64,000 nucleotides of DNA from Cereibacter johrii (GTDB taxonomy: Bacteria > Pseudomonadota > Alphaproteobacteria > Rhodobacterales > Rhodobacteraceae), in NCBI RefSeq assembly GCF_001720585.1, contig NZ_MABH01000165.1, positions 1 through 64,000 on the forward strand. Reading direction: 5' to 3'. Positions 9,530 through 51,416 of the stretch are shown piece by piece. Below the pieces are notes generated by a model. That model was not told where the DNA came from, did no database searches, and worked only from the letters and a program-made list of their open reading frames with translations. Made by a program: the position numbers and the translations under genes. Position 1 is the stretch's first letter. Every line of letters starts with the position of its first letter.

Positions 9530-10384
9530 TCAGCCGAGGAAGGCGTCCACCTCGTCGGCCGTGGGCATGGCTTGGGCTGCGCCCGGACGTGTCACCTGAA
9601 GAGCGGCGGCCGCGGATGCGCGGCGCATCGCCGCCGCCGGAGCGAGCCCGGCATCGAGCGCCGCGGCAAGGTTTCCCGTGAAACAGTCTCCCGCACCCAC
9701 CGTGTCGACGGCCGTCACGGGAAAGGCCGGAACGGACAGCCGGTCCTCGCCCGGAACGAGCCATTCGGCACCCCGCGCGCCGAGGGTCACGACCATCGCC
9801 ACCTCGGGCAGCGCCCCGAGCGCGGCTCTCAGGGCCGCCGCTTCGCCCTCGTTCATCACGAGGAGGCTGACATAGGGCAGGACGGCCTGCACGGCGCCGA
9901 TCTCGAACGGGGCGGCGCAATAGATCACCCTCAGGCCGCGCTCCGAGGCCAGACGCGCCGCCTCGACCTGCGCCGAGGTCTCATTCTGCAGAAGGAGCGT
10001 GTCCCCCGGGCCCGCCCCGGCGAGGGCCGCCGTCACCGCCGCTGCATCGAGCGTCCGGTTCGCGCCCGAAAAGATCACGATGGTATTCTCGGCCTCGGCA
10101 TCCACATTGATGATGGCATGGCCGGTGGCGACCTCGCCCACCGCCACATGGGTCACATCGACGCCGGCCTCCGCCATCCGCTCGCGCGCCCAGCGCCCCT
10201 CGGGCCCGACCGCCCCGACATGACGGATCCGCGCCCCGGCCCGTGCCGCGGCGACGGACTGGTTTGCGCCCTTGCCGCCGAGGCCCAGACTGTAGCTCGC
10301 GGCCTCGAGCGTCTCGCCGGGCGCCGGCAGGTGCGGCATCCGGTAGACATGGTCGATGTTGATCGAGCCCAGATTGAGCAGCAT
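9530..10384 (-). CDS. rbsK: Ribokinase-like PfkB-family sugar kinase
   Basis: A PfkB-family kinase of about 284 aa. The N-terminal GLGGKGANQSVAAARAG motif contacts the substrate. The C-terminal VDTVGAGDCFTGNLAAAL holds the catalytic Asp of the GAGD anion hole, placing it with ribokinases; other sugars are possible. I chose ATG 10384, which shares one base with the maeB stop (TGATG) and is preceded by AAGGTGGGG. It is probably translated by coupling after maeB. No ribose transporter is adjacent. Confidence 0.82.
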   Translation of the reverse strand: MLLNLGSINIDHVYRMPHLPAPGETLEAASYSLGLGGKGANQSVAAARAGARIRHVGAVGPEGRWARERMAEAGVDVTHVAVGEVATGHAIINVDAEAENTIVIFSGANRTLDAAAVTAALAGAGPGDTLLLQNETSAQVEAARLASERGLRVIYCAAPFEIGAVQAVLPYVSLLVMNEGEAAALRAALGALPEVAMVVTLGARGAEWLVPGEDRLSVPAFPVTAVDTVGAGDCFTGNLAAALDAGLAPAAAMRRASAAAALQVTRPGAAQAMPTADEVDAFLG

Positions 10385-20132: not shown

Positions 20133-20486
20133 ATGCGGCTCCTGTGGGTCTCGGCCGGCCTCGCCGCGCTGGGACTGGGCGTGCTGGGCATCTTCCTGCC
20201 CCTCCTGCCCACCGTCCCTTTCCTCTTGCTGGCGGCCTTCTGCTTCGCCCGCTCGTCCGAGAGGCTGCACAACTGGCTGATCCACCACCCTGTCCTCGGC
20301 CCGCCCATCCGCGACTGGGAGCGTTCAGGCGCCATATCGCTCAAGGGCAAGCAGATGGCGACCCTGTCGATGCTGGCTGTCTTCGGGATCTCGGTCGGCC
20401 TTGGTCTCCGACCGACGATCCTTGCCGTTCAGGCGGCGGCGCTCTGCGCCTCCGGCCTCTTCATATGGACCCGTCCCTCGGCATGA
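20133..20486 (+). CDS. DUF454 (YbaN-like) membrane protein
   Basis: A 117-aa inner-membrane protein with an N-terminal hydrophobic pair (LWVSAGLAALGLGVLGIFLPLLPTVPFLLLAAFCFA), the DUF454 motif FARSSERLHNWLIHHPVLGPPIRDW, and one or two C-terminal membrane segments. Function unknown. It starts 1 bp after the hemW stop; its last 26 bp overlap the convergent parB. Confidence 0.85.
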   Translation: MRLLWVSAGLAALGLGVLGIFLPLLPTVPFLLLAAFCFARSSERLHNWLIHHPVLGPPIRDWERSGAISLKGKQMATLSMLAVFGISVGLGLRPTILAVQAAALCASGLFIWTRPSA

Positions 20487-21363
20487 CCGAGAGCGTTCGG
20501 CACAGCGTGTCGAGATCGTCGAGCGTGGTGTAGCGGATCGTGAGCCGCCCACTCTCGCCGCCCGGCTCGTGATCGATCGTCACCGCCATCTTCAGATTGG
20601 CCGAGAGATCCGCCTCGAGCGCCCGCGTATCGGCATCCTTCTCGCGGCCTCCGCGCGGCGCGCTCGGCTTGCGCTTCTCGCCCGCCCCGCGCGCCAGACG
20701 CTCCGTGTCCCGCACCGAGAGGTTGCGCGAGATCACCTGCCGCGCCAGATCCGAGGCGTTGGGCGTGGTAATGAGCGCCCGCGCATGGCCCGCGGTCAGC
20801 TTCCCCTCCCGCAGCCAGACCTGAACGTCGTCAGGAAGCTGTAGCAATCTCAACAGGTTAGCAATGTGAGAGCGGCTCCGTGACAGCGCCTCCGCCAGCT
20901 TTTCCTGAGTATGGCCGAATCGGTCCATCAGCTGACGGTAGCCCATCGCCTCTTCGATCGCGTTCAGGTCCGCGCGCTGAATGTTCTCGATGATCGCGAC
21001 CTCGAGCACCTCGGTATCGTCGAACTCGCGCACGATCACCGGCACTTCGTGCAGCTGCGCGAGCTGCGATGCCCGCCACCGCCGCTCGCCCGCCACGATC
21101 TCGTAGCGGTCGCCCTCCGGCATCGGCCGGACGATCAGCGGCTGGATCACGCCCTTCTGCCGGATCGACGCCGCCAGATCCTCCAGCGCCTCCGGTCCGA
21201 AATCGCGACGAGGCTGATTCGGGTTCGGCACCAGCTTCTCGACCGGCACCAGAAGATCCGGCCGGCGCGCAGCGCCCTGCCCCGCATCGACCTCGACCTG
21301 AATGTCCGCCATCAGCGCGGACAGGCCGCGGCCAAGCCCACGACGCTCCATCTTCTTCTCCAT
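20461..21363 (-). CDS. parB: Chromosome partitioning protein ParB
   Basis: A ~300-aa ParB CTPase clamp that loads on parS and spreads to organise the origin region. It has the typical start ERRGLGRGLSALMAD, box I/II sequences (VEKLVPNPNQPRRDF; YEIVAGERRWRAS; IIENIQRADLNAIEEA) and a helix-turn-helix (TQEKLAEALSRSRSHIANLLRLLQLP). ATG 21363 shares a base with the parA stop (TGATG). ATG 21348 (MERRGLGRG), with GGAG 6 nt upstream, is an equally good start. Two parS sites lie 1.4 and 3.3 kb upstream. Confidence 0.94.
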   Translation of the reverse strand: MEKKMERRGLGRGLSALMADIQVEVDAGQGAARRPDLLVPVEKLVPNPNQPRRDFGPEALEDLAASIRQKGVIQPLIVRPMPEGDRYEIVAGERRWRASQLAQLHEVPVIVREFDDTEVLEVAIIENIQRADLNAIEEAMGYRQLMDRFGHTQEKLAEALSRSRSHIANLLRLLQLPDDVQVWLREGKLTAGHARALITTPNASDLARQVISRNLSVRDTERLARGAGEKRKPSAPRGGREKDADTRALEADLSANLKMAVTIDHEPGGESGRLTIRYTTLDDLDTLCRTLSVMPRDGSI

Positions 21364-22187
21364 CACAAGGCGGGTTCCTGTCGGGCCGCGAAGCCGTGGC
21401 GCACCGCGATCTCTCGAGCCAGCGCCCGATAGGCTTCGCTGCCCTTCGACGTCGGATCGTAGGACAGCACTGGCAGCGCGTAGGACGGCGCTTCGCTGAC
21501 ACGCACATTTCGCGGGATCATCGTGCGGAAGACCAGATCGCCGAGGTTCTGGCGCGCGTCGCCCTCAACCAGTTGCGACAGGTTGTTCCGCTTGTCATAC
21601 ATCGTGAGCAGCACGCCCTCGATCTTCAGCGCCGGATTGGCTGTCCCCCGCACTTCGCGGATCGTCAGCATGAGTTGCGACAGCCCTTCGAGGGCGAAGA
21701 ATTCGCTCTGCAGCGGGACGAGAACCGAATCGCAGGCGATGAGGGCGTTCACCGTCAGCAGGCTCAGCGACGGCGGGCAGTCGATCAGGATGTAGTCGAA
21801 GCCGAACCGCTCCATACCCTGCTGACGCAGCGCCTCGCGGAGCAGCTGGCTCCGCTTCTCGTTCACCGCAAGCTCGATGTCGGCAGAGGCGAGATCCGCA
21901 TTCGCCGGACAGAGGAACAGGTTGTCGGTGCGGGTCGGCAGGATGACCTCGTCCAGATCCGGCTTGTCGAGCAGAAGATCGTAGCTGGTCTTCAGCCGGT
22001 CGGGGGCCTCGATCCCGAGGCCGGTCGAGGCATTTCCCTGCGGATCGAGATCGACAACCAGGATCCGGGCCCCGAGTTCCGCGAGGCCAGCGGCCAGGTT
22101 GATGGCGGTCGTGGTCTTGCCCACGCCCCCCTTCTGGTTAGCGATCGCCAGGATGAGCGGCTTGCCGGGTCGGATCGAATCAGACAT
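21363..22187 (-). CDS. parA: Chromosome partitioning ATPase ParA
   Basis: A 274-aa ParA/Soj ATPase with deviant Walker A ANQKGGVGKTTTAINLA (residues ~16-32), LVVDLDPQGNASTGLG and YILIDCPPSLSLLTVNAL. It forms DNA-bound gradients that move ParB-parS complexes to daughter cells. Its start overlaps the end of rsmG, and parB follows. The mnmE-mnmG-rsmG-parA-parB order is the conserved near-origin arrangement of alphaproteobacteria. Confidence 0.95.
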   Translation of the reverse strand: MSDSIRPGKPLILAIANQKGGVGKTTTAINLAAGLAELGARILVVDLDPQGNASTGLGIEAPDRLKTSYDLLLDKPDLDEVILPTRTDNLFLCPANADLASADIELAVNEKRSQLLREALRQQGMERFGFDYILIDCPPSLSLLTVNALIACDSVLVPLQSEFFALEGLSQLMLTIREVRGTANPALKIEGVLLTMYDKRNNLSQLVEGDARQNLGDLVFRTMIPRNVRVSEAPSYALPVLSYDPTSKGSEAYRALAREIAVRHGFAARQEPAL

Positions 22188-22800
22188 GAGCCAGGGCTTT
22201 CAGCTTCAGGATGACGGCGTCGGGGTCGGTGAGGCTCGGCAGAGTCTCCAGCTCCATGTTCCACGACTGGCGCGCCGCTGCAATCTCGCTGATGTGCCCT
22301 GCGCCCTTCGGGAAGAGGCAGATCCCATTCGGTGCCAGATGCGGCGCAGCCAGCGCGCAAAGCTCGGGCAAGGCGGCCAGAGCGCGGGCACTGATGACAT
22401 CAGCACCCTGCGGCGGAAGCGATTCGATGCGCGCGGCCAGCACCGACGCGGAGAGTTCCAGCTCGCGACAGGCCGTGCGCAGGAAGGTGGCCTTCCGCTG
22501 ATCCGATTCGACCAGAACGAATCGAGACTCGGGCGACTCGTCGGCCGCAATGATCGCAATGACAATCCCCGGGAAGCCGGAACCGCTTCCGAGGTCCAGC
22601 CACAGGCGCGGGCGAAGGGCAAGATGTGCCCGCAGCTGCGCCGAATCAAGGACGTGCCTCGTCCAGATGCTGTCGACGGTGGAGCGCCCGATCAGATTGA
22701 CCGCCTTGTTCCACTTCTCCACCAGCGCGACGAAGTGTGAGAGCTTTTCGGATGTTTCACGTGAAACATCCAGCTGCGCGAGCACGCTCTCCTGCATCAT
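22180..22800 (-). CDS. rsmG: 16S rRNA (guanine-527 N7) methyltransferase RsmG
   Basis: A ~206-aa SAM methyltransferase for 16S rRNA G527. Motif I is [18 protein letters not shown]. Two tandem ATGs at 22800 and 22797 overlap the mnmG stop (ATGATG), so the start is ambiguous by one codon. Residues DVSRET near the N-terminus are encoded by a perfect parS site. Overlaps parA by 8 nt. Confidence 0.94.
22753..22768. promoter_or_regulatory. parS: parS centromere site 1 (inside rsmG)
   Basis: TGTTTCACGTGAAACA, a perfect 16-bp palindrome identical to the universal parS consensus for ParB. It lies within the first codons of rsmG (D-V-S-R-E-T), 1.4 kb from parB and about 5 kb from the putative origin. 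Confidence 0.95.
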
Positions 22801-24677
22801 ACGGCCGCCGCATCCCGGCCCGCGCGCCGCAGGCGGGCAAGGATCAACGTCAGGGCAGACGGCGTCATCCCCTCCAGCTGAGCCGCCTGGGCAATGGTCG
22901 ACGGGCGAGCGCGCATCAGCTTGGCTTTCAGCTCGCTCGACAGGCCCGACAAGGGCGCATAATCGAAATCCGCCGGAATGCGAATCGCCTCGTCGCGCTT
23001 CAGTGCCGCTGCCTCTTCTTCCTGCCGCAGGATGAATTGCGCATACAGCCCGTCCTTCGCAAGCTGCTGGCGGATCTCTTCCGGCAGGTCGCCGTATCCT
23101 TCGATCCCCTGCTCCACGGCCGACGCAGCCTCCTCGCCGAAGGCCATCACAGCGAAAGCCGTGCGTCGGACGCCATCCTGGCTGACCTTGATCCCCAGCT
23201 CGTTCAACTGCGACGGCGTGAAGGTGCTGCCCTCGAGAAGGGCCCTCCCCTTCTCCAGCATCTCGCGCTTCCTGCTGAAGCTCTCCCGTCGCGCGTCGCT
23301 GACGCAGCCGAGATCCAGCCCGATCGGCGTCAGGCGCTGGTCGGCGTTGTCGGCGCGGAGAGACAGACGGAACTCGGCGCGCGAGGTGAACATGCGATAA
23401 GGCTCGGTGACACCGCGGGTCGTGAGATCGTCGATCATCACACCCAGGTAGCTCCCCGAGCGGCTGAAGTGGAGCGGCTCGCAACCACGGATCGACAAGG
23501 CCGCGTTGAGCCCCGCCGCGAGTCCCTGAGCTGCGGCTTCCTCGTAACCGGTCGTACCGTTGATCTGGCCGGCGAAGTAAAGCCCGCCGAGCGCCTTCAC
23601 TTCAAGAGTCGGGCGCAGTTCGCGTGGATCGAAGTAATCATACTCGATCGCGTAGCCGGGCTGCAGGATGCGCACCTCCTCGAGCCCGACGATCGTGCGG
23701 ACATAGGCCTCCTGAACGTCCGCAGGAAGCGAGGTCGAGATCCCGTTGGGATAGACGGTGTCATCGTCGAGGCCCTCGGGCTCAAGAAAGACCTGATGCT
23801 CCTGCTTATCCGCAAAGCGCACGATCTTGTCCTCGATGGACGGACAGTAGCGCGGCCCGACCCCCTCGATATGGCCACCATACATGGCGGAGCGACCCAG
23901 GTTGTCCCGCACGATCTGGTGGGTGCGCTCGTTCGTATGGGTAATCCCGCAGGCAATCTGCCGCGCTTTGGGCGCACGGTTCAGGAAAGAGAAAACCACC
24001 GGATCCTCGTCGCCCGGCTGCATTTCGAGCTCGGCCCATCGAATCGTGCGGCTGTCGAGGCGCGGCGGGGTACCGGTCTTCAACCGCCCGCGTGCCAGAG
24101 ACAACTCCCCCAAGACCGCTGCGAGGCGCCGAGATGGATCATCACCCATCCGCCCCCCGGGGCGCTGCTGGTCCCCGATATGGATGATGCCGTTCAGGAA
24201 CGTCCCCGAGGTGAGGATCACCCGCCCTGCCACGATACGGGTCCCGTCCGCCAGCGAGACGCCCTGAACCCGATCGCCCGAAACCTGCAGGTCGACGACC
24301 TCGCCTTCGATAATGGTCAGACCCGGCTGCTCCGCCAGAAGCCGTTGCACGGCTTCGCGATAGAGCCGGCGATCCGCCTGAGCGCGGGGACCCTGGACGG
24401 CCGGACCCTTCTTCCGGTTCAGCAGACGGAACTGGATTCCGGCCTCATCGGCCGCGCGGCCCATGATCCCGTCGAGCGCATCGATCTCGCGGACGAGGTG
24501 GCCCTTCCCCAGACCGCCGATGGCGGGATTGCAGGACATGACGCCGAGCCCGGACTTCCGGAGCGTAATCAGCGCAACCTGAACGCCCATGCGCGCAGCA
24601 GCGGCAGCCGCTTCACAACCGGCATGTCCGCCCCCGATGACCACAACGTCGAAATGTTTCACGTGAAACACCCTCAC
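22797..24677 (-). CDS. mnmG: tRNA U34 carboxymethylaminomethyl-modifying enzyme MnmG (GidA)
   Basis: A ~626-aa FAD protein that works with MnmE to modify wobble uridine 34. FAD-binding [16 protein letters not shown] is at the N-terminus. The GidA signatures [23 protein letters not shown] and [12 protein letters not shown] are also present. GTG 24677 overlaps the mnmE stop (GTGA); GTG 24671, giving [15 protein letters not shown], is an equally likely start. FHVKH is encoded by a perfect parS site. Confidence 0.94.
24655..24670. promoter_or_regulatory. parS: parS centromere site 2 (start of mnmG)
   Basis: A second perfect TGTTTCACGTGAAACA palindrome, overlapping the first codons of mnmG (F-H-V-K-H) and its possible GTG start. 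It is 1.9 kb from parS site 1 and 3.2 kb from the putative origin. Confidence 0.95.
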
Positions 24678-27394: not shown

Positions 27395-27859
27395 TCAGAA
27401 GCCCCAGTAGTTCCATTTCGCCACAGCGGAGAAGACGATCACCAGCATGAGGAGCGTCGGAAGTTCGTTCATCATGCGGTAGGTGCGCCCCGCGTGGCGG
27501 TTGGCGCCAGCCGCGAAGTCGCGCCGACGGGCCGAGAGCCACATGTGAAACCCGGTCATCGCCAGAACGCAGGCGGCCTTCGTCCAGGGCCAGAGCATCG
27601 ACCAGTCAACGATGCCCGGCGTGAAGACGAGGAGCAGGCCGAAGATCCAGGTCGAGATCATGGCCGGGTTCATGATCGCCCGCAGAAGCCGCCGCTCCAT
27701 GGTCTGGAACAGCGCGTCGGTGTCGGTCCCGGCTTTTACGACCTCGGCGTGATAGACGAAGAGCCGGGGCAGGTAGAAGAGCCCCGCCATCCAGGCCAGC
27801 ACCGAAATCACATGCAGCGACTTGGTCCACAGGTAGTAGTCGGCCAGGAACGTGCCCAT
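27395..27859 (-). CDS. hemJ: Protoporphyrinogen oxidase HemJ
   Basis: A 154-aa four-helix membrane protein of the HemJ family (oxygen-independent-type protoporphyrinogen IX oxidase). Motifs: YLWTKSLHVISVLAWMAGLFYLPRLFVYH (conserved His and Arg), LLRAIMNPAMISTWIFGLLL, and C-terminal RMMNELPTLLMLVIVFSAV. I chose ATG 27859 (MGTFLADYYLW) because GAGGAGACGACG precedes it. It lies just left of the putative oriC. Confidence 0.92.
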   Translation of the reverse strand: MGTFLADYYLWTKSLHVISVLAWMAGLFYLPRLFVYHAEVVKAGTDTDALFQTMERRLLRAIMNPAMISTWIFGLLLVFTPGIVDWSMLWPWTKAACVLAMTGFHMWLSARRRDFAAGANRHAGRTYRMMNELPTLLMLVIVFSAVAKWNYWGF

Positions 27860-27997
27860 CGTCGTCTCCTCGAAGCGGTCGGCCATCCTCATAAGAAAAG
27901 AAAGATTAGAAGGGAATGATGCAGTAGGGCGCAGGGATAACTGGATTTCCGATCTTACCCCTGCGCTTGTCCACAAGGTTCCCTCTGGGGGCAGCGG

Positions 27998-28006
27998 TGT
28001 GTATAA
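27998..28006 (-). promoter_or_regulatory. DnaA box (perfect)
   Basis: TTATACACA on the minus strand, matching TTATNCACA. One of two perfect boxes in the putative oriC. Confidence 0.75.
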
Positions 28007-28072
28007 GTGTGGAGAATTTTTGGCCCCTCCGTGAAACACGCGTAATTACAGTCGGTTACGGAAATTATTCTG

Positions 28073-28081
28073 TGTGGATAA
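28073..28081 (-). promoter_or_regulatory. DnaA box (perfect)
   Basis: TTATCCACA on the minus strand, the strongest consensus DnaA box, just right of the A/T-rich segment of the putative oriC. Confidence 0.8.
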
Positions 28082-28275
28082 GTTTCAGGCGACCTCTCCC
28101 CAGCCATGGGAGAGGCGGTTCGTCCACGGCAGGCGGGAAGCTTCGTCCACGAGTGGACAACTGTGGCTCTTTGCCCGATAACATGGCATCTTGACGGACC
28201 ATCGGTCACCGACAGCCCGGCTTGTGCCGGATTCGCCGTCAGGAACAGAAGCAGACTATCCACAGCCTCCTCCCC

Positions 28276-28869
28276 ATGCGCCTTCTTCTCGCCTCTGCCT
28301 CGGAAACGCGGCTCGCGCTCCTTCGGGCCGCGGGGCTGGAGCTCGAGGCCCTGCCCGCCCGCATCGACGAGGAGGGCGTGCGCGGGGCGCTGGAGGCCGA
28401 GGGTGCCTCTCCGCTCGACGTGGCCGACACGCTGGCCGAGATGAAGGCGCAGAAGCTGGCCGAGCGGCACCGCGAGGCGCTGGTTCTGGGCTGCGATCAG
28501 GTGCTGGCCTTCCGCCGCGAGGTCTGGGGCAAGGCCCCCTCGCCCAAGGCGCTGCGCGCCCAGCTCCTCCGGCTGCGGGGCGAGACGCACAAGCTGATCT
28601 CGGCCGTCGTCCTCTACGAGGAGGGCCGCCCGGTCTGGCGCCATGCGGGCGAGGTGCGGCTCACGATGCGCGACTTTTCCGACAGCTGGATCGACGGCTA
28701 CATCGCCCGCAACTGGGAGGCCGTGCGCCATTCGGTCGGAGGCTACCATCTCGAAGGCGAAGGGGTGCGGCTCTTCTCGGCCGTCGAGGGGGATTATTTC
28801 ACCGTCCTCGGCCTGCCGCTCCTGCCGCTCTTGAATTATCTGGGTCAAAGAGGCTTCATCCCGACATGA
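28276..28869 (+). CDS. maf: Maf family nucleotide pyrophosphatase
   Basis: A 197-aa Maf/YceF-type nucleotide pyrophosphatase acting on modified nucleotides. N-terminus [20 protein letters not shown]; then LGCDQVLAF and [19 protein letters not shown] chose ATG 28276 from the conserved Maf N-terminus; the ribosome binding site is weak. First rightward gene from the putative oriC; its stop overlaps aroE by 4 nt. Confidence 0.92.
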
Positions 28870-43484: not shown

Positions 43485-44426
43485 TCACAGCCAGCCTTCG
43501 CCGCGAGCCTCCTCGGCGGCCCCCGCGACAGCTGCACGGTAATCCGCAATCAGGCGGCGGCAGAGCTCTCCTGCCTTCGGAATGTCCGAGATGCCGCCCA
43601 CGCCCTGCCCCGCCGACCAGACGTCGCGCCACACCTTCGCCTCCGAGGCCATGTCGAGATGCGGGGCCGCCCCGCCCTCGGGATCGATCCCCGCAGCGGC
43701 GAGGCTCTGGCGCAGGAAGCTTGCCGGAACGCCGCTCACCTTCGGCGTATAGACGATGTCCGCTGCCGCGCTCTCGGCCACCATCCGCTTCTGTTCCTCG
43801 GATACCTGCGCCTCCTCGGTCGCGAGGAAGCGGGTGCCGAGATAGGCGAGGTCGGAGCCCATCATCCGGGCCGCTGCCACGTCCCGCCCGGTGTTCATCG
43901 CGCCCGACAGGACGATCGTGCCCGCGAAGAACGACCGGATCTCCGAGACCAGCGCGAAGGGGTTCAGCGTGCCCGCGTGCCCGCCCGCCCCGGCTGCCAC
44001 GGCAATGATGCCGTCGACGCCCGCCTCGGCGGCCTTGCGGGCATGGCGCGCGTTCACGACATCGTGGAAGACGAGCCCGCCGTAGCCATGGACCGCCGCC
44101 ACCAGCTCCGGCACCGCGCCGAGCGAGGTGATGACGAGCGGCACCTTCTCGGCCACGCAGACCGCCAGATCCGCCTGAAGCCGCGGGTTCGAGCGATGGA
44201 CGATCAGGTTGACGCCGAACGGCGCCGCCTCAGGCGCGAGCCTGTTGCGGATGTCGTGCAGCCAGTCGCGGAACCCTTCGGTGGTGCGCTGGTTCAGCGC
44301 CGGGAAGGTGCCGAGGAGGCCTGCGTTGCAGGTCTCCACCACCAGATCCGGGCCCGATGTGAGGAACATGGGCGCAGCGATCACGGGCGCCTTCAGGCGG
44401 CCCTTCAGGGCTTCGGGAATGGGCAT
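43485..44426 (-). CDS. Nitronate monooxygenase / 2-nitropropane dioxygenase-like flavoprotein
   Basis: A 313-aa FMN TIM-barrel protein. Motifs: LKAPVIAAPMFLTSGPDLVVETCNAGLLGTFPALN; GVDGIIAVAAGAGGHAGTLNPFALVSEI (FMN phosphate site); GSDLAYLGTRFLATEEA. Substrate could be alkyl nitronates or an unknown reduced flavin reaction. GGAGGATCCG precedes ATG 44426. Confidence 0.88.
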   Translation of the reverse strand: MPIPEALKGRLKAPVIAAPMFLTSGPDLVVETCNAGLLGTFPALNQRTTEGFRDWLHDIRNRLAPEAAPFGVNLIVHRSNPRLQADLAVCVAEKVPLVITSLGAVPELVAAVHGYGGLVFHDVVNARHARKAAEAGVDGIIAVAAGAGGHAGTLNPFALVSEIRSFFAGTIVLSGAMNTGRDVAAARMMGSDLAYLGTRFLATEEAQVSEEQKRMVAESAAADIVYTPKVSGVPASFLRQSLAAAGIDPEGGAAPHLDMASEAKVWRDVWSAGQGVGGISDIPKAGELCRRLIADYRAAVAGAAEEARGEGWL

Positions 44427-44743
44427 CGGATCCTCCTCTCGCGTGGCGAGAGGTGACACCGCCTGCCGAACTCCGGTCAACCGTTCCGCTGCGTCGGGGA
44501 GGATGGGCGGGCGGGATGCTCGCCGATGGGGATTCTTGAGGAAAGCCGGCGGTCGCATCGAAGGACATACGCGAGCTATAACCGAACAACGGTTCTATAA
44601 CTACCGCCAAAGCAGCTCGGCGACGGGACTCGCTGCGGATCGCAGGATGACGTGCGGACCGATCTCTCGCCAGTCCGGCACCCTTGGGCCTGACGGAGAG
44701 GAGCGGGCAAGGGCGGATCGCCCGCCGTCGCCCGCTGCACGGA
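44427..44743. other. Gene-free region with operator-like inverted repeat
   Basis: 317 bp without a convincing gene. At 44577-44599 lies TATAACCG-AACAA-CGGTTcTATA, an imperfect palindrome of MarR/TetR-operator size, about 150 bp upstream of the nitronate monooxygenase start. A small GGGCGG-ATCG-CCCG-type hairpin is near 44715. No promoter can be fixed with confidence. Confidence 0.45.
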
Positions 44744-44929
44744 TCACGGAATGACCGCGCCGCCCACACCGCCGACCACGGCGCCCGTGATGGGATCGTC
44801 CGCGATCACCTGGCCCGCGACGGCCCCGCCGAGGGCGCCGGTCGCGGCCCGCTGGGTGCGGGTGTCACCGCAGGCGGCGACGGCCACGCTCAGCACGAGG
44901 GCGGGAAGCAGGAACTTGGGAATGTTCAT
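44744..44929 (-). CDS. Small lipoprotein with glycine zipper
   Basis: A 61-aa protein: hydrophobic signal MNIPKFLLPALVLSVAVAAC with a lipobox ending AAC, then DTRTQRAATGALGGAVAGQVIADDPITGAVVGGVGGAVIP, a glycine-zipper-like segment. GGAGGATCCCG precedes ATG 44929. Resembles small outer-membrane lipoproteins (YMGG/SlyB-like) of unknown role. Confidence 0.8.
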   Translation of the reverse strand: MNIPKFLLPALVLSVAVAACGDTRTQRAATGALGGAVAGQVIADDPITGAVVGGVGGAVIP

Positions 44930-45061
44930 CGGGATCCTCCATGTCGGGTCCGGGCGGTGTGCCCGCCCGAACATTACGCTGAGGAATGCGCGCGGCGGCC
45001 GGAACGTTCCGTCGCAGGTCCGCCGCCGGCGAAGATTTGCCGGCAGACGCTTCCCCACCGC

Positions 45062-46252
45062 TCAGGCAAGCGCCACCCCGGCCGAATAATGCGCGACCTC
45101 GCCGCGGTGGAGCGCACGGAGGATCACCTCCTCCTCGTCCGTCGCGATCACGGCGGCCTTCACCCGGCTGCCCGGAGCCGAGATGACGGCCTGTCCCGCG
45201 CCATTCGCGGCCGCATCCATCTCGAGGCCGAGCCAGCCGAGCCCCTCCATCACCCGCGCCCGGATCTCGGGCGAATGCTGGCCGATGCCCGCGGTGAACA
45301 CCAGCGCGTCGAGGCCGCCCATTCCCGCGCTCAGGGCTCCGATCTGGCGCAGGATGAAGCGGACGAAGAGATCGACCGCCTCGGCCGCCTCGGGCCGGTC
45401 GCTGGCCAGAAGGTCGCGCATGTCGGGGCTGATCCCCGAGACGCCGGCGAGGCCGCTCTGCTTGCCGAGGATCGTCTCGATCTCCGGTCCGGTCAGGCCC
45501 TGCCGCAGGAAATGCAGGATCACGCCCGGATCGAGCTGGCCGCAGCGCGTGCCCATCATCAGCCCGTCGAGGGCGCTGAAGCCCATGGTCGTGTCGAGGC
45601 TGCGCAGGTTCTCCATCGCGCAGAGGCTCGCGCCGCTGCCGAGATGGGCCACGATCACCTTGCCGCGCCCGGTCTCGCCCAGCACCTCGGGCAGGCGGCT
45701 CGCGATGTAATCGTAGGAGAGCCCGTGAAAGCCGTAGCGCAGGATGCCTTCCTCGGCCATGGCGCGGGGCAGGGCATAGAGCCGGGCGAGGCGCGGCCGG
45801 TCGTGGTGGAAGGCCGTGTCGAAGCAGGCGATCTGTGGCACCCCCGGCCAGCGCGCCTCGACCGCCCGCACCCCCGCGAGGTTGAAGGGCTGGTGGCTGG
45901 GGGCCAGCGGCGAGAAGCTCTCCAGCCGCTCGAACACCTCGGGCGTGAGCAGCACCGGCGCGTTGTAGTCGGGCCCGCCATGCACGACGCGGTGCCCGGC
46001 CGCATGCAGGTCGAGCGGCCCGAGGCGGCCTTCGAGCAGGCCCAGAAGCCACAGCGTCAGCTCCTTGGCGTCCCGCGCATCCGCGGGGGCACGCAGTTCC
46101 AGCGTGCCGTCGGGCAGGCTGGCCTTCAGCCGCGGCTGAAGGCCGATCCCCTCGATCAGGCCGCGGACGAGAGGGCGCGCATCCTCCACGTCGAACAGGC
46201 CGAACTTGACCGTGGAAGAGCCGATGTTCAGGACGAGCCAGACGGGTTTCAT
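45062..46252 (-). CDS. ackA: Acetate kinase
   Basis: A 396-aa acetate/propionate kinase interconverting acyl phosphate and acyl acid. Motifs: LVLNIGSSTVKFGLFD, AAGHRVVHGGPDY, CFDTAFHHDRP (catalytic Asp region), RYGFHGLSYDYIA, VIVAHLGSGASLCAMENLRSLDTTMGFSALDGLMMGTRCGQLDPG. ATGA overlap with the MaoC-Pta gene; last gene of the phaC-fabI-maoC/pta-ackA unit. Confidence 0.95.
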   Translation of the reverse strand: MKPVWLVLNIGSSTVKFGLFDVEDARPLVRGLIEGIGLQPRLKASLPDGTLELRAPADARDAKELTLWLLGLLEGRLGPLDLHAAGHRVVHGGPDYNAPVLLTPEVFERLESFSPLAPSHQPFNLAGVRAVEARWPGVPQIACFDTAFHHDRPRLARLYALPRAMAEEGILRYGFHGLSYDYIASRLPEVLGETGRGKVIVAHLGSGASLCAMENLRSLDTTMGFSALDGLMMGTRCGQLDPGVILHFLRQGLTGPEIETILGKQSGLAGVSGISPDMRDLLASDRPEAAEAVDLFVRFILRQIGALSAGMGGLDALVFTAGIGQHSPEIRARVMEGLGWLGLEMDAAANGAGQAVISAPGSRVKAAVIATDEEEVILRALHRGEVAHYSAGVALA

Positions 46253-47670
46253 TCGGCCACCGGCTTCGTGGGCCGCGCCTCGGCATGGAGCCGGGCAAGG
46301 GCCGCCGAGGTGAGGCGCGCGGAGGGACCGTCGGCGCGGCTCGTCAGCATGATCGGCACCTTCGCCCCGAGCACGAGGCCCGCGGCCTCGGCGCCGCCCA
46401 GATGGATCAGCTGCTTGGCGATCATGTTGCCGCTCTCGAGGTTCGGCGCCACGAGGATGTCGGCGCGCCCTGCCACGTCCGAGACGATGCCCTTGGCCTT
46501 CACCGCCTCGAGCGAGATCGCATTGTCGTAGGCCAGCGGCCCGTCGATCAGCCCGCCCACGATCTGGCCGCGGTCATGCATCTTGCAGATCGAGGCCGCG
46601 AGGAGGGTCGAGGGGATCTTGCCCGTCACCGTCTCGACCGCCGACAGCAGCGCCGTGCGCGGGCAGTCGATCCCCAGCGCCATGACGAGGTCGATGGCAT
46701 TCTGGACGATGTCCTTCATCGTCTCGAGATCGGGCGCGATGTTGATCGCCGCATCGGTGATGAAGAGGATCCGGTCCACGTCCGGCACGTCGAGGGCGAA
46801 GACATGGGACAGGCGCCGCTCGGTCCGCAGCCCCGTGTCGCGGCGGAGCACCGCCGACAGCAGCTCGTCGGTGTGCAGCTTGCCCTTCATCAGCGCGCCC
46901 GCGCGTCCCTCGCGCACCAGATCCACCGCCACTTCGGCCGAGGCATGGCTGTGGGGGGTATCGACGATGCGGCTCTCGTCCAGCGTGACATTGGCCGCGG
47001 CCGCCGTGGCGAGGATCCTGGCCTTCGGCCCGACCCACCAGGGCGCGATGAGGCCCGCGCCCTCGGCCTGGATCGCGCCGAGAAGGCTCAGGTCGTCGCA
47101 GGGATGGACGATGGCCGTGGGCAGCGGAGGCAGGCTCCGCGCGGCGAGGATGAGGTTGGCAAAGCGCGCGCCCGGCGTGTGCAGCCGCACCTCGGGCAGG
47201 TGCGAGACCGGCCGGCGCACCTTCTCGCGCGGGGCCATCACCAGCGCCTCGCCGGTGATGACCAGCTCTCCCGCCTGATTGAGGCAGAGGCAGTCGAGCG
47301 TGACCTTGGCCGAGGCCATGTCCTTCTCGCGCACCGTCACCCGCACCGTGATCCTGTCGCCCGGCGAGACGGGGCGGCGGAAGCGCAGGGACTGGCCGAG
47401 ATAGATCGTGCCGGGGCCGGGCAGGCGGGTGCCCAGCACCGCCGAGATCAGCGCGCCGCCCCACATGCCGTGGGCGATCACATGGTGAAAGCCCGTCTCG
47501 GCCGCATAGGTCGCATCGAGGTGAGCGGGGTTCACGTCTCCCGACATGACGGCGAACAGCTCGATGTCCTCGGGGGTGAGCACGCGGTCCACCTCGGCGC
47601 TCTCGCCGATCTGGAGTTCGTCCAGCGTCCGGTTCTCGACCGTGGTGATGGAAGGATCACATCCGAACAT
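46249..47670 (-). CDS. MaoC dehydratase-phosphate acyltransferase fusion
   Basis: A 473-aa bifunctional protein. Residues ~10-150 are a MaoC/(R)-specific enoyl-CoA hydratase hot-dog domain (HLDATYAAETGFHHVIAHGMWGGALISAVLGTRLPGPGTIYLGQSLRFRRPV with catalytic D/H). Residues ~170-473 are a Pta/Ptb-type phosphotransacylase (LLGAIQAEGAGLIAPWWVGPKARI, GRAGALMKGKLHTDELLSAVL, FITDAAINIAPDLETMKDIVQNAIDLV). Predicted to form (R)-3-hydroxyacyl-CoA and/or acyl phosphate, feeding PhaC and AckA. Confidence 0.9.
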   Translation of the reverse strand: MFGCDPSITTVENRTLDELQIGESAEVDRVLTPEDIELFAVMSGDVNPAHLDATYAAETGFHHVIAHGMWGGALISAVLGTRLPGPGTIYLGQSLRFRRPVSPGDRITVRVTVREKDMASAKVTLDCLCLNQAGELVITGEALVMAPREKVRRPVSHLPEVRLHTPGARFANLILAARSLPPLPTAIVHPCDDLSLLGAIQAEGAGLIAPWWVGPKARILATAAAANVTLDESRIVDTPHSHASAEVAVDLVREGRAGALMKGKLHTDELLSAVLRRDTGLRTERRLSHVFALDVPDVDRILFITDAAINIAPDLETMKDIVQNAIDLVMALGIDCPRTALLSAVETVTGKIPSTLLAASICKMHDRGQIVGGLIDGPLAYDNAISLEAVKAKGIVSDVAGRADILVAPNLESGNMIAKQLIHLGGAEAAGLVLGAKVPIMLTSRADGPSARLTSAALARLHAEARPTKPVAE

Positions 47671-48415
47671 GTCGGCCTCCGTCGATATGGGTCACGGTTC
47701 CTGTGACGCCCGAGGCGGCATCGGAGGCGAGGAAGGCGGCCACGGCGCCCACCTCGTCGATGGTCACCAGACGCCGCTCGGGCGAGCGGGTCTTGGCATC
47801 CTCGATCAGCGCGTCGAAATGGTCGATGCCGCTGGCCGCGCGGGTGGCGATCGGGCCGGGCGAGAGCACGTTGGCCCGGATCCCCTGCGGCCCGAGCTCG
47901 GCCGCCACATGGCGGGTGCAGGCCTCGAGCGCGGCCTTCACCGGCCCCATGATGTTGTAATGGTCCACGACCTTCTCGGCGCCGTAGTAGCTGACCGTCA
48001 TCAGGCTGCCGCCCGCGCTCATCAAGGGTTCGGCCAGCTTCGCCATCCGCAGGAACGAGTGGCAGGAGATGTCCATGGCCTGCGCGAAGCCCGCGGCCGA
48101 GCAGTCGGTGACGCGGCCGTGCAGGTCTTCCTTCGGGCAGAAGGCCACCGAATGGAGCAGGAAGTCGAGCCGCCCCCAGCGCTCCTTCACGCTCTCGAAC
48201 ACCGCGTCCAGCGCGCCCTCCTGCGACAGGTCGAGCGGCAGCAGCGCCGCGGCGCCCACCTCCTCGGCCACCGGCCGGACATGGGGCAGGGCGCGCTCGT
48301 TCAGATAGGTCAGCGCAAGCTCGGCCCCGGCTCCGGCGAAGGCGCGGGCGCAGCCGGCGGCGATCGACTGGCCGTTGGCGACACCCACCACCAGCCCGTA
48401 TTTTCCCTTCAGCAT
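47657..48415 (-). CDS. fabI: Enoyl-ACP reductase FabI-like
   Basis: A 252-aa short-chain dehydrogenase of the FabI class. N-terminal LKGKYGLVVGVANGQSIAAGCARAFAGAGA, and the FabI-type catalytic YX6K pair in SYYGAEKVVDHYNIMGPVKAALEA, plus NVLSPGPIATRAASGIDHFD. It lies inside a PHA/acetate operon, so a specialised role is possible rather than the main fatty acid FabI. It overlaps the next gene by 14 nt and begins 13 nt after phaC. Confidence 0.88.
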   Translation of the reverse strand: MLKGKYGLVVGVANGQSIAAGCARAFAGAGAELALTYLNERALPHVRPVAEEVGAAALLPLDLSQEGALDAVFESVKERWGRLDFLLHSVAFCPKEDLHGRVTDCSAAGFAQAMDISCHSFLRMAKLAEPLMSAGGSLMTVSYYGAEKVVDHYNIMGPVKAALEACTRHVAAELGPQGIRANVLSPGPIATRAASGIDHFDALIEDAKTRSPERRLVTIDEVGAVAAFLASDAASGVTGTVTHIDGGRHVRM

Positions 48416-48428
48416 CGTCCCCAGCCCT

Positions 48429-50150
48429 TCAGCGTTGCAGGATGTAGGTGCCCGGCGCCTCGCAGAGCGCGGGATAGCCGCCCCGGGCGCTGCCCATCGG
48501 TGGCAGCTTGCCCTTGGGCGCGGAGCGTTCGGCGAGCCAGGCGCCCCAGGCGGGCCACCACGAGCCCTCGACCGGCGCCGTCTCGGCGAACCATTCGTCG
48601 GCGTCGCGGTAGGGATCGTCGCGCCGGGTGGTGGCGATGCGGAAATGCCGCCGCGGATGGCCCGGCTCGGACACGATGCCCGCATTGTGCCCGCCCGAGG
48701 TGAGCACGAAGGTCGTTTCGGTCTCGGTCAGCCGCTGGATCTTGAAGACCGACCGCCAGGGCGCGACATGGTCGGTCTCGGTGCCCACCGCGAGGATCGG
48801 CAGCCGCAGCTCGGTCAGCGACAGCGCATGACCCTCGAGCTCGAACTTGCCCTCGGCGAAGCGGTTCTCGAGAAAGAGCTGGCGCAGATATTCCGAATGC
48901 ATCCGGTAGGGCATCCGGGTGGTGTCCGCGTTCCAGGTCATCAGGTCGTTCGGATGCGGCTGCTCGCCCATCATGTATTCATGGATCATCCGCGACCAGA
49001 TCAGATCGTTCGACCGCAGAAGCGTGAAGGCCCCGCTCATCTGGTCGCTGTCGAGATAGCCCTGATGCCACATCATGTCCTCGAGCAGCGCCACCTGCGC
49101 CTCGGAGATGAAGAGCGCCAGCTCGCCCGCTTCCGAGAAATCGACCTGCGCGGCGAACAGCGTCATCGAGGCCAGCCGCTCGTCGTGATCGTGGGCCATG
49201 CGCGCGGCCATGATCGAGAGCAGCGTGCCGCCGAGGCAGTAGCCCGCCGCATGGACCCTGGGTGCGCCGGTGATCGCCTGGATCGCCTTCAGCGCCGCGC
49301 GCGGCCCCTGATCGAGATAGTCGATCAGACCCAGATCGCGGTCCTCCGACAAGGGGTTGCGCCACGAGATCATGAAGACGGTGAAGCCCTGCGCCACCAG
49401 CCAGCGGACCAGCGAATTCTGCTCGCTCAGGTCGAGGATGTAATATTTCATGATCCAGGCCGGCACGATCAGCACCGGCTCGGGATGCACCTCCTTCGTG
49501 GTGGGGCTGTACTGGATCAGCTCCATCAGATGCGTGCGCAGGACGACCTTGCCGGGTGTCGCGGCCAGCGTCTCGCCGATGCGGAACCCGCCCACGTCCA
49601 TCGGCACGCCGGTTGCGAGGCGGGCCATGTCGCCCGCGAAATTCATCGCGCCCTGCACGAGGTTCGCGCCCCGCGTCTCCGTCGTCCGGCTCAGCACTTC
49701 GGGATTGAGGAACGGGTTGTTCGAGGGCGACCAGACATCGAGCATCTGGCGCACCGAAAAGCTCAGCGCCGCCTCGTGCGCCCGGTCCATCCCGCGCAGG
49801 CCGGTGGTGGCCGTCTGCCACCAGTCCTCGGTCAGAAGGAAGCTGTCGCGCAGCGCGGCGAAGGGCTGGCGGTTCCACGCCTCCGAGGCGTAGCGGCGGT
49901 CCTTGACCGGAGCCTCGTGCGGCTGCAGCCCCGCCTGCATCAGGGCTGCGGAGGCAGTCGCGGCCTTCTCCCACAGCTCCGCCTGCTTTCCGGGGGCCGC
50001 GGCCAGATGCATCATCCAGTCGAGCGCGGCCGTGGCCAGCACCGAGGGCGCCAGACCCCGTGTCATGCCCGCGATGGCGGCGCGCGCCGCCCGATCCAGC
50101 GCTTGCCCATAGGCCGGCGCACCTTCCGCATTCCACTTCATGTCAGACAT
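48429..50150 (-). CDS. phaC: Polyhydroxyalkanoate synthase
   Basis: A 573-aa class I PHA synthase polymerising (R)-3-hydroxyacyl-CoA. Nucleophile Cys in the lipase-like box GYCLGGT; catalytic Asp in VGTETDHVAPW; His in TSGGHNAGIVSEPG. Family block PVLIVPAWIMKYYILDLSEQNSLVRWLVAQGFTVFMISWRNP is present. No phaR or phaP lies beside it. This may be a second synthase, since R. sphaeroides has another phaC elsewhere (from memory). The gap to the divergent hydrolase gene carries an FNR-like site. Confidence 0.92.
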   Translation of the reverse strand: MSDMKWNAEGAPAYGQALDRAARAAIAGMTRGLAPSVLATAALDWMMHLAAAPGKQAELWEKAATASAALMQAGLQPHEAPVKDRRYASEAWNRQPFAALRDSFLLTEDWWQTATTGLRGMDRAHEAALSFSVRQMLDVWSPSNNPFLNPEVLSRTTETRGANLVQGAMNFAGDMARLATGVPMDVGGFRIGETLAATPGKVVLRTHLMELIQYSPTTKEVHPEPVLIVPAWIMKYYILDLSEQNSLVRWLVAQGFTVFMISWRNPLSEDRDLGLIDYLDQGPRAALKAIQAITGAPRVHAAGYCLGGTLLSIMAARMAHDHDERLASMTLFAAQVDFSEAGELALFISEAQVALLEDMMWHQGYLDSDQMSGAFTLLRSNDLIWSRMIHEYMMGEQPHPNDLMTWNADTTRMPYRMHSEYLRQLFLENRFAEGKFELEGHALSLTELRLPILAVGTETDHVAPWRSVFKIQRLTETETTFVLTSGGHNAGIVSEPGHPRRHFRIATTRRDDPYRDADEWFAETAPVEGSWWPAWGAWLAERSAPKGKLPPMGSARGGYPALCEAPGTYILQR

Positions 50151-50456
50151 GGATCGTTCCGTGTTCCGAAGGCTCTGGAGCCCGCTTACGCTTCTTTCAT
50201 GAAATCGGTGTAATGCACCTGCAGCATTTTTGATTTGAGCAAGGTCAAGTTGTTCAACTGCCGTGATTTACGGCACCGAGGCCGATGCCGCATTGCAGCA
50301 CAAAGGCTTGGACCGAACCTGCGGCGGATGGTCGCGCGGCACTGTGCGGCATTGACCCGGCAGCCTTGCGCCCTAGCTCACCGATTCGTGGGTGAGGTGA
50401 GTCTCCGCGGCCTCCGGGCAACGGCGAGGATCCTGTCGAGTTCCGAGCGGTGTATC
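50151..50456. other. Divergent promoter region phaC / hydrolase
   Basis: 306 bp without a gene. At 50235-50248 lies TTGAG-CAAG-GTCAA, which matches TTGA-N6-TCAA of the FNR/FnrL family (2 mismatches to TTGATN4ATCAA), 85 bp upstream of the phaC start. Confidence 0.4.
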
Positions 50457-51395
50457 ATGCGCAGGGTCCGTCTTGTCCGTCTGCTGTTCGTGTTCAACCT
50501 CATGATTGCGGTCATGATGGGGGCGGGGATCGCGCTCTGGACGCCGGACCTGCCGCGGGCAGAGCTCGAGGGGCGCTATCTCGCCCGGCCCGGCGATCTG
50601 GCGACGGTGGCCGGCACCACGATCCACATGCGCGACCGCGGCCCGAAGGGCGCGCCCGCCGTCATCCTGATCCACGGCTTCGGCTCGAGCCTGCATACCT
50701 GGAGCGCCTGGCAGGACCGGATGGCCGCCACCCGGCGCGTCATCAGCTTCGATCTGCCCGGCCTGGGCCTCTCGCCGCCCGACGCGACCGGAGACTATTC
50801 CGACCGGCGGGTGGCCGAGATCCTGATCGCCATCATGGACCGCGCGGGCTTGCAGCAGGCCGACCTGATCGGCAACTCGATCGGCGGGCGCATCGCCTTC
50901 ACCTTCGCCGCCGCCCACCCCGAACGGGTGCGCAAGCTCGTCCTCGTGTCGCCCGATGGCTACGAAAGCCCGGGCTTCACCTATGGCGAGGCGCCCGAGG
51001 TGCCGCTTCTTGCCGAGGCTCTCCGCTACTGGCTGCCGCGGCCGCTGCTGCGCCTGTCGCTCGGCATGGCCTATGCCGATCCCAACGTCATGTCCGATCA
51101 GATCGTCAGCCGCTATTACGACCTGATCCGCGCACCGGGTGTCCGCGAGGCGCTGATCGACAGGATGCGGCAGACCGTTCTCGTTCCGCCCGAAACGCTT
51201 CTGGCGCGGGTGCGCGCGCCGACGCTGCTGCTCTGGGGCGAGGAGGATGCGGTGATCCCGGTCTCGAACGCCCCGTCCTATGCGCGTGCGCTGCCCGATG
51301 TGCGGACCGTCCTCCTGCCCCGCATGGGCCATGTGCCGCAGGAAGAGGGGCCTGACCGCTCGCTTGCCCCGGTCGAGGCCTTTCTCGCCGGTTGA
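50457..51395 (+). CDS. Alpha/beta hydrolase
   Basis: A 312-aa alpha/beta hydrolase with an N-terminal membrane anchor or signal (VRLLFVFNLMIAVMMGAGIALW). Oxyanion HGFGSS, nucleophile Ser in IGNSIGGRIAF, Asp in LLWGEEDAVIP, His in PRMGHVPQEEGP. Divergent from phaC; a role in PHA or ester turnover is possible but not shown. Confidence 0.88.
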   Translation: MRRVRLVRLLFVFNLMIAVMMGAGIALWTPDLPRAELEGRYLARPGDLATVAGTTIHMRDRGPKGAPAVILIHGFGSSLHTWSAWQDRMAATRRVISFDLPGLGLSPPDATGDYSDRRVAEILIAIMDRAGLQQADLIGNSIGGRIAFTFAAAHPERVRKLVLVSPDGYESPGFTYGEAPEVPLLAEALRYWLPRPLLRLSLGMAYADPNVMSDQIVSRYYDLIRAPGVREALIDRMRQTVLVPPETLLARVRAPTLLLWGEEDAVIPVSNAPSYARALPDVRTVLLPRMGHVPQEEGPDRSLAPVEAFLAG

Positions 51396-51416
51396 CGCCG
51401 TCCTTCCGGCTTCACA

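Follow-up and report, generated by a model that had tools for sequence, protein, structure and literature searches.

A candidate chromosomal replication origin between divergent hemJ and maf genes of Cereibacter johrii, with a three-base repeat shared with other alphaproteobacterial families

Predicted chromosomal origins of the Rhodobacteraceae lie beside maf, a position stated as conserved in the family, on the basis of DoriC, in a report that also predicts the chromosomal oriC of Ketogulonicigenium vulgare via Ori-Finder/DoriC (PMC4793288). Ori-Finder/DoriC predictions are likewise reported for 101 Rhodobacteraceae strains (PMC6699656), and OriC1 of Rhodobacter sphaeroides has been placed by cumulative skew together with Ori-Finder (PMC6315104). 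Caulobacter and Rickettsia are described as having a hemE-COG1806 form of the origin (PMC1914354). The unwinding strand of the Bacillus origin bears DnaA-trios (3'-GAT-5') next to tandem DnaA boxes, and the published BUS rule asks for a box with at most two mismatches, a spacer of at most 16 and at least three 3'-NAN-5' trios (PMC8287927). Arg202 and Glu228 hold the trio guanine in the Bacillus structure, and Asn187 holds the central adenine; C can substitute for that adenine, while G or T give a lower rate (PMC10721633). The tree of PMC8287927 marks five proteobacterial classes and its predicted BUS sequences are placed in a supplement; among the titles and abstracts listed in our literature search we found none on DnaA-trios in Caulobacter or Alphaproteobacteria, although those predictions may include them.

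We analysed 64,000 nucleotides of Cereibacter johrii (contig NZ_MABH01000165.1, positions 1 to 64,000; the window), in which a short gap separates divergent hemJ and maf genes (Table 1). Judged from sequence, this gap is very probably the oriC of the Cereibacter main chromosome, opened at its hemJ edge, a reading to which we give a probability of roughly 0.93. It draws on the observed box cluster, its conservation, the nearby parS sites, the strand asymmetry of a relative (G004) and the order of AT-rich tract, repeat and tandem boxes; the claim of a probable oriC in a first-pass annotation of the window gains further support from the family-wide gap, from class-wide synteny and from the position already in print (PMC4793288).

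Table 1. Features of the origin candidate and its surroundings (window coordinates except for dnaA)
Feature	Position	Strand	Remark
parB	20461-21366	minus	
parA	21363-22187	minus	
parS, exact TGTTTCACGTGAAACA	22753-22768		
parS, exact TGTTTCACGTGAAACA	24655-24670		
hemJ	27395-27859	minus	PF03653, E 3.3e-60
oriC candidate, the hemJ-maf intergenic gap	27860-28275		gene calls; kept in relatives
AT-rich tract, probable DNA unwinding element	27885-27912		75% AT in 24-nt windows from 27885, 27888 and 27889
Invariant 35-nt block, trinucleotide repeat and weak tandem boxes	27913-27947		five Cereibacter genomes
Trinucleotide repeat ATG-ATG-CAG-TAG, DnaA-trio-like	27916-27927	plus	
Weak DnaA-like box CAGGGATAA	27932-27940	minus	three mismatches; family consensus TGTGGATAA
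Degenerate second tandem box ACTGGATTT	27940-27948	minus	family consensus approximately TGGGGATTA
DnaA box TTGTCCACA	27967-27975	plus	1 mismatch
DnaA box TTATACACA	27998-28006	minus	1 mismatch to TTATCCACA; fits TTATNCACA
DnaA box TTCTCCACA	28008-28016	minus	1 mismatch
DnaA box TTATCCACA	28073-28081	minus	exact
Weak box TCGTCCACG	28120-28128	plus	family consensus at site TTATCCACA
Weak box TCGTCCACG	28143-28151	plus	family consensus at site TTATCCACA
DnaA-like box	28152-28160	minus	2 mismatches
DnaA box CTATCCACA	28256-28264	plus	1 mismatch
maf	28276-28869	plus	start read in sequence, homology by tblastn
dnaA	L007:1159-2526		

The gap between hemJ and maf

The gene-free gap of 416 bp described in the first-pass annotation is real, and the subset of genes that we checked on either side diverges from it, with parB, parA, rsmG, mnmE, rho and hemJ reading leftward and maf, aroE, coaE and dnaQ rightward. 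The local A/T-rich stretches claimed for it were likewise recovered: the gap as a whole is 44% AT, and 24-nt windows reach 75% AT at about 27885-27912 and about 28062-28085, so that by sequence composition it has the AT-rich element beside DnaA boxes expected of an oriC. A promoter and terminator scan found neither a sigma-70-like promoter nor a terminator in the gap. A structured RNA there was rejected, the sole match of an Rfam scan lying far under threshold and inside maf, where we took it as chance. The sequence CTTGACG at 28190-28196, a possible -35 element for maf, is the same in five Cereibacter genomes. A second block invariant in those five (the first is listed in Table 1) is TTGTGCCGGATTCGCCGTCAGGAACAGAAGC at 28222-28252; it lacks a DnaA box and includes a GANTC (CcrM-type) site at 28230.

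Counting boxes that deviate from TTATCCACA at no more than one position, we found eight across the window, where 1.72 were expected, and five of the eight inside the gap, where shuffled sequences held 0.06 on average and none of 5000 shuffles reached five. Such a short intergenic cluster is characteristic of a DnaA-dependent bacterial oriC. Of the two perfect boxes claimed for the gap, that at 28073-28081 matches TTATCCACA exactly, whereas 27998-28006 reads TTATACACA and is perfect only against TTATNCACA; the further one-mismatch boxes do exist, just one of the five being exact. Genome-wide, TTATNCACA occurs 12 times, as does its reversed control, and a close pair is found only in the gap. Since TTATNCACA is not commoner than its control, it is the cluster of boxes, rather than any single box, that carries information. 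In the relative G004, more than one box of at most one mismatch per 416 bp occurred only in the stretch holding the gap (five boxes) among 29 sampled stretches of 20 kb, one of which was unreadable and scored as zero and two of which were read in part.

The exact boxes differ among the Cereibacter gaps. At most one mismatch allowed, the gaps of the window and G004 hold five boxes each, those of G002 and G001 three each and that of G003 two; the boxes at 27998 and 28073 are both retained only in the window and G004, an exact TTATCCACA is absent from the gaps of G002 and G003, and the site at 28256 carries a box in all five. Across 166 Rhodobacteraceae gaps the median is three boxes, and 100 of the 166 lack an exact TTATCCACA. 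Judging from these sequences, exact DnaA boxes are not the conserved feature of the gap, even within Cereibacter. The family consensus has a DnaA box across the start codon of maf (TTATCCACATG) at 28268-28278, of which the window keeps a degenerate form.

The gap itself persists. Its identity to that of the window is 92, 80, 75 and 73% in four relatives of the same genus (92% in G004), and a divergent hemJ-gap-maf arrangement was found at 96 of 112 family loci, with a median gap of 411 bp; at the other 16 no divergent maf was present in the stretch examined. These 112 comprise 108 loci from the family search and four from relatives in the genus, and duplicates of the window, G004 and G025 were removed; hemJ matched in 124 family genomes among 149, weak paralogs and some contig-end matches being left out. 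The arrangement also holds at every one of the 80 named loci compared (the best 80 of 472 matches), with gaps of 387-444 bp. The alignments used below omit two loci (gaps of 181 and 597 bp), three duplicate named loci and identical sequences. The locus resembles the predicted oriC of other Rhodobacteraceae in lying next to maf (PMC4793288), in its DnaA boxes and skew reversal and in being near parAB. It is unlike those predicted origins in that 27998 reads TTATACACA and in its degenerate tandem pair on the side of the DNA unwinding element (DUE).

As in Caulobacter Cori, described in PMC1914354, a heme gene stands on one side and maf with its followers on the other, and the edge at the heme gene is AT-rich. 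The locus differs from Cori in that hemE is displaced (it lies elsewhere in the same genome, on contig C60), in that PPPase (COG1806, PF03618) has no match in the draft genome, and in the absence of a CtrA site; the flanks are therefore not hemE and COG1806, while the remaining gene string is conserved. At 30 loci from other alphaproteobacterial families, one each (the best of 78 PPPase-matching genomes among 114, with 70 of the 78 fetched overall), hemE is divergent in 28 and maf directly follows PPPase in 25. The missing PPPase match and displaced hemE contrast with most of the other families sampled. The simplest reading of these gene orders is an ancestral hemE-[oriC]-PPPase-maf, with hemE and PPPase probably lost from the site in the lineage of the window. 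Neither TTAA-N7-TTAA nor TTAACCAT, which we take to be the CtrA motifs, occurs in the gap, a further departure from Cori, and the best gap match to WATCAANNNNTTR, presumed to be the IHF motif, carries three mismatches.

The parAB genes and two parS sites reported near the gap were confirmed. Exact parS occurs in the C. johrii genome only at these two places, 3.2-5.1 kb from the gap, and in this genome, G004 and G003 alike there are just two exact sites, on the hemJ side and within 5.2 kb of the gap. A weaker parS-like sequence, the third, carries two mismatches and lies at 9670-9685, about 18 kb from the gap.

An origin at dnaA was rejected, no box with at most one mismatch being found between about 1.1 kb ahead of the gene and 1 kb past it. 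In seven relatives dnaA lies 67-130 kb from the gap when the contigs are treated as closed circles. The contigs of five of these seven begin at, or at most about 110 bases from, dnaA. With dnaA this far from oriC, the numbering of a record is no guide to the origin.

A three-base repeat at the hemJ edge

The edge of the gap next to hemJ is made up of an AT-rich tract, a trinucleotide repeat and a pair of weak tandem boxes. An A-rich consensus occupies the place of the tract in 166 Rhodobacteraceae sequences, and the tract is probably the DUE, at which the duplex would unwind. The adjoining 35-nt block at 27913-27947 is fully identical in five Cereibacter genomes, compared with 73-92% for the gap as a whole. 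Most DnaA boxes of the gap vary more than this block, which overlaps a segment (27906-27943) matched at 84% in G025, a member of another genus. The alignment of the 166 sequences shows, from left to right, an A-rich tract, the repeat ATG-ATG-ATG-TTG-TAG at 27913-27927, GGG and two boxes, the first resembling TGTGGATAA and the second TGGGGATTA; the tandem boxes are weak in the window. In 62 other families, from which stretches lacking hemE had been removed (2 of 30 and 6 of 40) and 34 of which were oriented by hemE alone, the order of tract, repeat and tandem boxes stands beside hemE in many, not all, of the printed sequences. What is new here is that these elements together appear, by sequence comparison, to form a module shared with other alphaproteobacterial families (62 sampled).

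We measured three-base periodicity with position anchored on the tandem boxes, which were sought no further than 150 nt (Rhodobacteraceae) or 190 nt (other families) from the start of the gene, and against shuffles of the same letters. In the 24 nt beside the boxes, G recurs at lag 3 with a z of 11.5 in the 62 families and 8.7 in the 166 Rhodobacteraceae, and T with a z of 9.7 and 16.4, the values for the 166 being overstated since those sequences are related, whereas each of the 62 stands for a different family. TAG, TTG, TGG, ATG, AGG and AAG are the most frequent NNG triplets of the 62 families. With the register set for the highest G count, the middle base in these families is T in 96, A in 81, G in 74 and C in 19 of 270 triplets, C being the rarest, and in the 166 Rhodobacteraceae T in 367, A in 226, G in 77 and C in 21 of 691. 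To say that the alphaproteobacterial trio lacks A would be too strong, A being the middle base in 81 of the 270.

Another way to view this edge is by comparison with the BUS of Bacillus subtilis, with which it shares the order of AT-rich tract, three-base repeat, short spacer and tandem boxes (PMC8287927, PMC6669920, PMC10721633); the box-proximal trio of the window is, moreover, TAG (3'-GAT-5'). Unlike the BUS, its other repeats retain G and not the central A, the published rule passes nowhere in the gap of the window on either strand, and the DnaA of the same genome has Tyr at the place of Asn187. Strict BUS membership of the window was accordingly rejected. By position, the hemJ-edge repeat would work like a DnaA-trio, though in the window it falls outside the published definition.

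Applied to the DUE-side module, the published rule passes in 81 of the 166 Rhodobacteraceae and in 13 of the 62 other families (5.5% and 6.9% when shuffled); with the search widened to the entire gap, 132 and 37 of them pass (22% and 23%). When boxes with up to three mismatches are allowed, 40 of 62 families (11% when block-shuffled) and 112 of 166 Rhodobacteraceae (10%) contain three 3'-G-N-[T/A]-5' triplets, and 29 of 62 (50%) and 129 of 166 (62%) contain three NAN triplets; in this comparison the spacer is free, NNG and NGN are indistinguishable and the shuffles also destroy boxes, and the anchored periodicity is the cleaner test. The window passes as four NNG triplets and fails both the G-N-[T/A] (WNG) and the NAN form, one of its triplets being CAG.

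Aligned to 8btg_A, the DnaA of this genome has Lys at the place of Arg202, Glu at Glu228 and Tyr at Asn187. Among 30 alphaproteobacterial DnaA loci including this one (the best 30 of 93 matching genomes, and so biased to close relatives), the Asn187 place holds Tyr in 28 and Phe in two, position 202 Lys in all 30 and position 228 Glu in 29, with one unread. Eight further loci of the class have Tyr (five), His (one) or were unread (two) at the Asn187 place, giving Tyr or Phe in 35 of 36 readable loci. At 19 loci of the phylum outside the class, the place is taken by Thr (nine), Asn (three), Gln (two), Ala (one) and Leu (one), with three unread. As the residue varies this widely, what ties Tyr to the loss of the central adenine is a correlation within one clade and not a demonstration.

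We tentatively propose that Alphaproteobacteria open their origin via a recoded DnaA-trio of approximately 3'-G-N-[T/A]-5', in which DnaA would read the guanine and not the central adenine, and that this recoding would accompany a DnaA in which Tyr or Phe stands at the Asn187 position, Lys replaces Arg202 and Glu228 is retained. We put this somewhat below even odds, slightly lower than at first, because 37 of the 62 families pass the NAN rule somewhere in the gap and because the strict recoded rule does not pass in the window. The window would be a weak case of the recoded trio, three of its four triplets fitting and the fourth having C at the outer position.

If the gap is the origin, initiation may be envisaged as follows. 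DnaA would bind the boxes across the gap between 28256 and 27967 as well as the weak tandem boxes at 27932-27948. Starting at these tandem boxes, it would assemble leftward onto one strand of the repeat (27916-27927), which would thereby act as a DnaA-trio. The AT-rich tract next to hemJ would melt, the helicase would be loaded there, and forks would depart from the gap both ways. ParB on the parS sites at 22.8 and 24.7 kb would then move the new origin.

Strand asymmetry and other readings of the gap

The C. johrii genome is in 257 contigs, and chromosome-wide skew was read in the 3,188,524 bp contig of G004, using 20 evenly spaced stretches of 20 kb, of which 19 were readable and two of these in part. 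Mean GC skew was -0.0216 in the hemJ half and -0.0004 in the maf half (Mann-Whitney p 0.008), and the octamer GGGNAGGG, which we take to be the FtsK-orienting motif of E. coli, had plus/minus counts of 10/56 in the hemJ half and 45/11 in the maf half. The gap falls inside the best half-circle split. In ten further genomes, chosen for large contigs and a divergent maf, GC skew over 20 kb was higher on the maf side than on the hemJ side in eight (Wilcoxon p 0.027), G131 and G062 showing no rise at the gap; this comparison omits G002, G101, G120, G121 and G128 and treats G004 and G168 separately. In G168, mean skew was about -0.046 over five hemJ-side stretches and about -0.008 over four on the maf side.

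The GC-skew check suggested by the first-pass annotation was answered in two ways by G004: on the scale of the chromosome the skew reverses around the gap, but on a fine scale the cumulative minimum (3,028,977) lies 24 kb toward the maf side of the gap (about 3,004,978). The GGGNAGGG orientation switches about 16-18 kb toward the maf side both in G004 and in the window, in the latter between 43603 and 45767 with a few exceptions on either side, and the skew minimum of the window is at 51415. Skew floor and octamer switch thus occupy 43603-51415, offset from the gap by 16-24 kb in the direction of maf. These offsets would be explained if the true origin lay there and the gap were a DnaA-titrating or regulatory cluster of boxes nearby. 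We consider this very improbable, as the right part of the window has boxes of at most one mismatch only as singles (30547 and 52671), no sampled G004 stretch holds a second cluster, the G004 skew floor is flat across about 50 kb, and skew is higher just past the gap in eight of the ten other genomes. Still less probable, in our judgement, is that the boxes serve DnaA in transcriptional control of hemJ, maf or both without any origin function. The gap is a divergent promoter region whose last box ends 11 bp before maf, and DnaA is described as also a transcription regulator in Caulobacter (PMC3193534); against this, the AT-rich edge, repeat and tandem boxes persist beside hemE/PPPase in other families, no sigma-70-like promoter was found in the gap, and strand asymmetry and parS indicate an origin. 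The gap may, however, have a dual use as origin and as transcriptional control region.

A different doubt concerns the repeat, since three-base periodicity is typical of coding DNA and the hemJ-edge triplets could be a coding piece (an N-terminal extension) or a leader instead of a DnaA element. The hemJ frame of the window is indeed open up to a GTG at 28039, 69 of the 166 Rhodobacteraceae sequences and 21 of the 62 others keep the frame open across the module, and in the 62 the phase of the repeat to the gene is mildly uneven (11/21/30, chi-square about 8.7). In the 166, however, the repeat is not frame-locked to the downstream gene (46/57/63); the frame is closed in most sequences, and a similar repeat lies ahead of hemJ in one group and ahead of hemE in the others. 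On the absence of frame-locking in the 166, and the merely mild unevenness in the 62, the coding explanation was set aside as improbable, if slightly less so than the two alternatives above.

Meaning for Cereibacter and the Alphaproteobacteria

Read as oriC, the gap would be an ordinary origin for the Rhodobacteraceae, in which an oriC beside maf is already in print (PMC4793288). Its identification fixes the probable oriC of one more species and indicates that exact DnaA boxes are a poor guide to it even within a genus. The wider interest lies in the three-base repeat conserved across the class. If alphaproteobacterial DnaA does read a different trio, then the model of central-adenine capture would need a clade-specific version, and origin prediction could become sharper in a class where the published rule catches the DUE-side module in so few of the families sampled.
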